This document shows positions 998 through 43,725 of a DNA stretch of 45,376 nt, in pieces. Source of the DNA: Candidatus Gastranaerophilales bacterium (GTDB lineage Bacteria; Cyanobacteriota; Vampirovibrionia; Gastranaerophilales; Gastranaerophilaceae); assembly GCA_944322615.1 (NCBI GenBank), contig CALUPH010000015.1, positions 1 through 45,376 on the forward strand. Reading direction: 5' to 3'. The position numbers and the translations under genes are program-made. The notes under the pieces were generated by a model, which did not search any database, had not been told where the DNA came from, and saw only the letters and a program-made list of their open reading frames with translations. Position 1 is the first letter of the stretch; the number at the start of each line of letters is the position of its first letter.

Positions 998-1318
998 CTA
1001 AGCGTTGGTTAGAATTTTCAACCCGGCTATTCCGCTTATTATAAGGAAAATACATAAAAATTTCATTGCAGTTATGGGTTCTTTAAATAAAAATATGCCC
1101 ATTAATACTGTTCCAACGGTTCCTATCCCTGTCCATATTGCATAAGCTGTACCAAGTGGTAAATTTTTTAGTGCTAAAGCTAAGAAATAAAAGCTTGTTA
1201 TCATACAAATTATTGTTATTGAAGATGGTAAAATCTTTGTGAATCCTTGTGTGTATTTTAGTCCAACTGCCCAGCTGATTTCAAATAAGCCTGCAATTAC
1301 TAAAAATATCCAATGCAT
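998..1318 (-). CDS. gdx: SMR-family guanidinium exporter (Gdx/SugE type)
   Basis: A 106-residue protein with four predicted membrane helices, the standard length of small multidrug resistance transporters. The N-terminus, with GLFEISWAVGLKYTQGF and the essential Glu at position 13, matches the SugE/Gdx subgroup rather than EmrE. Gdx proteins are dual-topology homodimers that exchange guanidinium for protons across the inner membrane. The start ATG follows a GAAAGGA ribosome binding site. The function is strongly supported by context: the 5' leader carries a guanidine-I riboswitch, so expression should rise when guanidine accumulates. No guanidine carboxylase or kinase genes lie beside it. Confidence 0.93.
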   Translation of the reverse strand: MHWIFLVIAGLFEISWAVGLKYTQGFTKILPSSITIICMITSFYFLALALKNLPLGTAYAIWTGIGTVGTVLMGIFLFKEPITAMKFLCIFLIISGIAGLKILTNA

Positions 1319-1345: not shown

Positions 1346-1447
1346 TAAGCCTGAGAGAATATCTTTCCTCCCAGGCTTTTATCCTTCCGTGTACACTTTT
1401 GTGAATTTTCTCTCGGACCAGCCGGTATTGCCGCGGAACCCTAGAAA
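1346..1447 (-). promoter_or_regulatory. Guanidine-I riboswitch (ykkC class)
   Basis: Read on the minus strand, the leader contains the conserved blocks of the ykkC/guanidine-I aptamer in order: CTAGGGTTCCGCGG, CTGGTCCGAGAGA, ACACGGAAGGATAAAA and GCCTGGGAGG. A GCCTG...CAGGC pairing at the 3' end (1349-1376) lies close to the gdx ribosome binding site and may form part of the expression platform. The aptamer lies directly upstream of a Gdx-type exporter, the classic genetic partner of this riboswitch. Confidence 0.95.
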
Positions 1448-1479
1448 ATATTTTGTATTTAATTTTTTATTATATTTTT

Positions 1480-28944: not shown

Positions 28945-28973
28945 ATTATACAGTTTTTTCTACATATTGTAAA
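28945..28973 (-). promoter_or_regulatory. Promoter of rpsA
   Basis: On the minus strand TTTACA (28968-28973), 17-base spacer, TATAAT (28945-28950). A near-consensus sigma-70 promoter that ends about 45 bases before the rpsA start. Confidence 0.8.
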
Positions 28974-43465: not shown

Positions 43466-43494
43466 TTGACATAAAAGTTATATGTGTCATAATG
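43466..43494 (+). promoter_or_regulatory. Strong sigma-70 promoter of the small RNA
   Basis: TTGACA (43466-43471) is a perfect -35. CATAAT or ATAATG at 43488-43494 gives a 16-17 base spacer. This is the closest match to consensus in the window. Confidence 0.75.
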
Positions 43495-43499
43495 ATAAT

Positions 43500-43630
43500 G
43501 TAAGATTTAAGTGTAAGCAATACACTAAACGAAACATTACAACCCCGAACACATATAAACTCCTAAATAATAAACACAAAAGAGACCATTAGGATGCAGA
43601 AATAGACCACTTTATAAGTGGCTTTTTTTT
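43500..43630 (+). ncRNA. Putative small RNA or regulatory leader upstream of purA
   Basis: Starts about 6 bases after the strong promoter and ends at an intrinsic terminator (CCACTT-TAT-AAGTGG, 43607-43621, followed by 8 T). It contains a hairpin AGTGTA-AGCAA-TACACT (43510-43526) and an unpaired A/C-rich stretch in the middle. It has no usable ORF. It does not match tmRNA, SRP RNA, RNase P or a purine riboswitch as far as I can see. It could be a free sRNA or a terminated purA leader. Confidence 0.55.
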
Positions 43631-43678: not shown

Positions 43679-43725
43679 AAGTGTTTGAAGTACAATTTAA
43701 ACACTTATTTGAAAAACACTTATTT
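43679..43725. repeat. Repeats upstream of purA
   Basis: AAACACTTATTT occurs twice (43699-43710 and 43714-43725), 15 bases apart. AAGTGTTT (43679-43686) forms an inverted repeat with the first copy. This pattern suits a transcription-factor binding region. Confidence 0.5.

Follow-up and report, generated by a model that had tools for sequence, protein, structure and literature searches.

The 134-nt segment upstream of purA very likely represents a genuine, free-standing small-RNA gene, as judged from the sequence, from which the RNA itself was deduced. It belongs to Gastranaerophilales (Melainabacteria), common gut bacteria that are known almost only from metagenomes and form a non-photosynthetic sister group of Cyanobacteria.

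Promoter, terminator and extent of the gene

The window, that is the whole stretch of 45,376 nt that was analysed, carries the gene on its plus strand (Table 1), and transcription probably starts near position 43500, as deduced from the position of the −10 box. The initial annotation had described the best promoter of the window, followed by an intrinsic terminator upstream of purA with no ORF between them. Promoter and terminator were both recovered at the positions it had claimed. Calling the promoter the best in the window is fair, because it is the only site on the plus strand with 11 of 12 matches and has a single equal on the minus strand (at 28973). That no ORF lies between the two signals is true in substance, since a lone 36-codon ORF (43482–43592) begins within the promoter and the longest ORFs in the homologous RNAs, mostly of 1 to 15 codons, are not conserved. 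The same observations, together with 1-nt indels, make a small mRNA for a short peptide very improbable, although the 36-codon ORF does overlap the RNA in the window.

Table 1. Features of the small-RNA locus (positions refer to the window)
Feature	Position	Strand	Remark
Sigma70-type promoter: TTGACA (43466–43471), 16 nt, TG-extended CATAAT (43488–43493)	43466–43493	+	11/12 matches
Small RNA gene (very likely)	43497–43630	+	Covariance-model match; about 134 nt
Dyad AGTGT-N7-ACACT, 5′ end of the RNA	43510–43526	+	Invariant arms, fixed spacing
A-rich segment, mostly unpaired, containing CCCC and CATATAAACTCCTAAATAATAAACAC	43539–43579	+	Kept in most of family f1
UCCUAA, predicted partner of UUAGGA at 43589–43594	43561–43566	+	97.7% of cells paired
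Invariant core AAGAGACCATTAGGATGCAGAAA, directly 5′ of the terminator	43580–43602	+	Alignment across families
Intrinsic terminator: 6-bp stem and U8 tract	43607–43630	+	Both-sided changes preserve pairing
Second dyad with one mismatch, AGTGTTTGAAGTACAAT, beyond the terminator	43680–43696		25/104 loci similar

The terminator stem spans positions 43607–43621 and is followed by CTTTTTTTT. Folding of the plus strand between 43500 and 43632 was more stable than that of shuffled sequences (z = −3.0). By chance, 1.0 ± 0.8 terminator-like sites are expected in the 3.4 kb that were scanned, so that the evidence from this single genome is modest and conservation decides. A sigma70-like promoter was present at all 113 homologous loci with enough upstream sequence to be tested, the spacer measuring 16 or 17 nt in 108 of them, and in homologues the pairing of the terminator stem survives substitutions on both sides.

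Conservation and genomic neighbours

Homologues were searched with a 231-bp query and with a covariance model built from 15 sequences. The query matched nearly all genomes of the same genus at 88–98% identity. Of the 286 Gastranaerophilales genomes searched with the model, 220 contained a full-length homologue, mostly as one copy per genome; they represent 34 of 50 genera. Within the genus, mean column identity was 0.981 over positions 43494–43606 compared to 0.631 in the upstream and 0.614 in the downstream flank, and it reached 0.865 for the promoter and 0.896 for the terminator; the alignment of the RNA thus shows a sharp fall of identity at both ends. At less close loci of this genus with unchanged neighbours, identity was 65–75% for the adjoining radical-SAM protein and 86–90% for PurA. 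The initial annotation had suggested a covariance search and an alignment with related genomes as a check, and had named missing sequence or structure conservation as the outcome that would speak against the candidate. Both sequence and structure turned out to be conserved across the order, and the candidate stood.

Among 386 genomes sampled from the phylum, 142 contained the 19-nt core (allowing up to one mismatch), every one within Gastranaerophilales and none among the other Cyanobacteria sampled, while the reversed core as a control matched none of the 386. Ten genomes of the same class but outside the order yielded nothing convincing, and the RNA was not found in viral contigs. Named records matched by a pattern scan were assigned to Candidatus Gastranaerophilales, Melainabacteria or 'Cyanobacteria', or were bacterial metagenome-assembled genomes (MAGs), mostly from the gut. 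A broader covariance model detected diverged copies in family f2, in which the core reads AGAACATTAGATTGCAGAG; its matches in families f3 and f4 are doubtful. The first model matched nothing in the whole genera g34, g35 and g38 of the family (G124, G126, G149 and others), where the scores of the broader model were low and doubtful, and the RNA has apparently been lost there or has strongly diverged.

MAG contigs often end on the RNA (G259:C2:1–139 and C4:1–141, G063:C17/C18, G031:C10/C21, L122, L124, L139), probably because the assembly graph branches where co-occurring species share this almost identical sequence.

The initial annotation had considered either an attenuated purA leader sensing a purine-related signal or an independent sRNA. 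In favour of a leader, the RNA has a terminator and, here and in some relatives, precedes purA in the same orientation. However, the 106 distinct loci showed 81 different neighbour-family pairs, the downstream gene was on the same strand at 50 and on the opposite strand at 56 of them, and the purA family followed at only 6. A general role as purA leader is thereby ruled out; a cis-acting leader or attenuator should always be followed by the same gene in the same orientation, which was not seen. Many relatives of the same genus have the RNA without purA behind it. In addition, about 240 nt separate the terminator from the start of purA, and no riboswitch family matched at the site. We therefore regard the leader as extremely improbable, and of the two readings it is the independent sRNA that stood, in view of the order-wide conservation, the RNA's own promoter and terminator and its independence of neighbours. 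Taken together, this neighbour independence, the promoter at all loci tested and the lack of a conserved reading frame make an independent RNA gene very likely.

RNA anatomy, probable operator and proposed action

From 5′ to 3′ the RNA consists of the dyad AGTGT-N7-ACACT, a CCCC stretch, the A-rich CATATAAACTCCTAAATAATAAACAC, the core AAGAGACCATTAGGATGCAGAAA and the terminator. Nineteen nucleotides of the core are identical in f1 and in the families f5, f6 and f7 of the order, and AGACCATTAGGATGCAGAA is constant over at least four families. The structure was analysed for 36 diverse sequences. In the proposed structure 92% of the cells were paired, and changes on both sides were seen for 8 pairs, most of which belong to the terminator or the upper 5′ stem; the covariation score exceeded that of all 500 shuffles. 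The 5′ arms GUGU/ACAC did not vary and thus give no information on RNA pairing at this position. For the helix between UCCUAA and UUAGGA only one-sided changes to G-U pairs were seen, since the core side hardly varies, and a rare variant, UUAAGA, loses one pair. Formation of this helix in the RNA is plausible but not proven.

The two arms of the 5′ dyad are constant and always separated by 7 bases, which are themselves variable. At 100 of 104 loci the RNA carries the exact dyad near its 5′ end. At 49 of the 104 loci a second exact dyad is located upstream, at a distance of 106–110 bp in 45 of the 46 cases with measured spacing, and at 25 loci a copy with one mismatch (mostly AAGTGT-N7-ACAAT) lies beyond the terminator, 50–140 bp past the core; two control intervals contained no such site (0 of 104 loci each). 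Outside the RNA, in 1.09 Mb of loci, about 57 pairs AGTGT-Nk-ACACT with k up to 24 were counted; 40 of these have k = 7, all of them near the RNA gene. In the distant families, dyad and −35 box overlap. These data suggest that the dyad is probably a DNA operator, the two sites of a dimeric regulator bracketing the promoter or the gene. In the RNA, the dyad may in addition fold into a hairpin.

The same dyad also occurs directly before typA/bipA, which encodes a translational GTPase (7 genomes from 6 genera), before an ORF of 94–101 aa (MKVN...) of no known family and, in one genome, before pckA; examples of dyads outside the RNA are L361 988–1004, L368 1041–1057, L369, L370, L373, L376, L378 and L379, among others. 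The genes following them are candidates for a regulon of a dimeric regulator in Gastranaerophilales.

An element that acts at the level of DNA, such as a repeat or a recombination site, and is conserved without RNA function could account for the operator-like behaviour of the 5′ dyad and for the contigs that often end on the sequence. It is nevertheless improbable, considering the promoter at 113 of 113 loci, the terminator pairing that is kept by compensatory changes, the mostly single copy per genome and the absence from viral contigs.

For the RNA itself we see about an even chance, from its sequence features, that it acts in trans and independently of Hfq by pairing with the start regions of mRNAs, UUAGGA serving as an internal gate. 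In a first step, which is well supported as far as the DNA motif is concerned, a dimeric regulator would bind both the AGTGT-N7-ACACT at the gene start and the second copy upstream or downstream, and would thereby set expression. The further steps are hypothetical. The complement of the A-rich segment 43539–43579 reads AGGAG, 5 nt, ATG, so that the RNA could cover ribosome-binding sites: when exposed, the CUCCU segment would mask Shine-Dalgarno sequences of target mRNAs without Hfq, and translation would be blocked. UUAGGA of the core, which finds its complement, UCCUAA, within the RNA itself, would hold the CUCCU segment closed; alternatively, the core itself would be the contact to a partner that keeps its sequence constant. 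Families f5–f7 lack the CUCCU segment, which therefore cannot represent the function common to the order. Hfq (PF17209) was detected in 0 of 98 Gastranaerophilales genomes, while 5 control bacteria were positive, and this rules out an Hfq-dependent sRNA.

Searches with the complements of the core and of the CUCCU segment revealed no conserved mRNA target. In 13 genomes, long complements to the core were limited to the RNA itself and three unrelated sites with two mismatches. The complement of CATATAAACTCCTAAA repeatedly identified the start region of an HNH-endonuclease gene in the same genus, and this conserved region pairs with the RNA over up to 14 contiguous positions (in G004). Start-region-like sites for this complement were not in excess over the reversed pattern, and the HNH match is not conserved across genera. 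The HNH-endonuclease gene may thus be considered a weak candidate for a target. The gene encodes 167–170 aa in this genus (L281–L285, L294). Its leader, GGGAATACTACAATTGTAGGAGTTWATATG, is strongly conserved and includes a perfect palindrome, CTACAATTGTAG, which adjoins the Shine-Dalgarno sequence.

The lack of a conserved complementary mRNA site and of Hfq would also fit a protein-binding or housekeeping RNA, in which the core would touch a protein or ribonucleoprotein, mRNA pairing being secondary. A core that is constant over an entire order is expected of protein contact, and the 5′ two thirds of the RNA are highly and uniformly conserved within the genus. On the other hand, large A-rich segments are unpaired and the fold is weak in several genera, 6S and SRP RNA proper have their own genes elsewhere, and the apparently regulated promoter is less typical of a housekeeping RNA. 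We consider this reading possible without favouring it; it ranks a close second to base pairing.

Comparison with known RNAs

In Rfam 15 no family scored above its gathering cut-off at the site, in the window or for distant homologues; weak listings (mir-970, the rimP leader, and sraA elsewhere) remained far below the gathering scores. A literature search retrieved no matching RNA and no described regulatory RNA of Gastranaerophilales. In another part of the window (1366–1455, minus strand) a Guanidine-I riboswitch (RF00442, 73 bits) is located upstream of a 106-aa ORF (998–1318, minus strand), which by eye encodes a putative transporter of the small-multidrug-resistance type; riboswitch and ORF together would form the textbook arrangement of a guanidine exporter.

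6S RNA (RF00013) binds RNA polymerase. Like the 134-nt RNA it is a widely conserved, single-copy non-coding RNA with its own gene, but the 134-nt RNA is devoid of the long bulged hairpin. The RF00013 match of G000 lies at C1:7243–7415 and not at the pre-purA site, and SRP RNA is likewise encoded elsewhere in the genome. SR1 of Bacillus subtilis is an sRNA repressed by CcpN, whose operators are shared with pckA and other genes. The likeness to SR1 lies in this arrangement, as the dyad of the 134-nt RNA is found before pckA as well, in one genome; the host of SR1 belongs to a different phylum.

The closest system in working style is, by analogy, Yfr1, a near-universal RNA of photosynthetic Cyanobacteria composed of a stem-loop, an unpaired ACUCCU motif and a terminator, with the ultraconserved 11-mer ACUCCUCACAC in the unpaired region (PMC2190773). 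UCCU is essential for target contact, and a motif that is nearly its complement is present in a partner RNA, Yfr2 (PMC6778093). Both Yfr1 and the 134-nt RNA are lineage-wide, have their own gene, and combine a 5′ stem-loop and an unpaired middle part containing ACUCCU with a 3′ terminator. Whereas the near-complement of Yfr1 is found in the partner RNA Yfr2, UUAGGA is part of the same molecule in the 134-nt RNA. The latter is also longer than Yfr1 (54–69 nt), shows ACUCCUAAAUAAUAAACAC at the position of the 11-mer, has a longer unpaired stretch and an extra predicted helix compared to the two stem-loops around 16–20 unpaired nt of Yfr1, contains the additional invariant core and lacks guaB/trxA synteny. 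Since the defining 11-mer is absent, and size and layout differ, it does not represent a canonical Yfr1. ACTCCTCACAC was found in most photosynthetic Cyanobacteria sampled; it is absent from G000 and only sporadic in Gastranaerophilales.

The 134-nt RNA offers a comparison point for how control of the Yfr1 type fared outside photosynthetic Cyanobacteria, where it may have been retained, altered or replaced. A more speculative and less likely reading is that of an order-defining non-coding RNA whose invariant core of about 20 nt would bind a protein or RNA partner without Hfq, under a new regulator whose dyad is also found before typA/bipA; such an RNA may replace Yfr1 in this lineage. Being nearly constant over tens of genera, the RNA with its 19-nt core and operator provides a handle on regulation in this lineage and a ready probe for metatranscriptomes. 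In having its own promoter and terminator, in being non-coding and in its independence of neighbours, it agrees with a trans-encoded intergenic sRNA, whose transcript and pairing with mRNAs are presumed here. This kind of RNA, the trans-encoded bacterial sRNA, is already known, but the family of the 134-nt RNA appears to be new.
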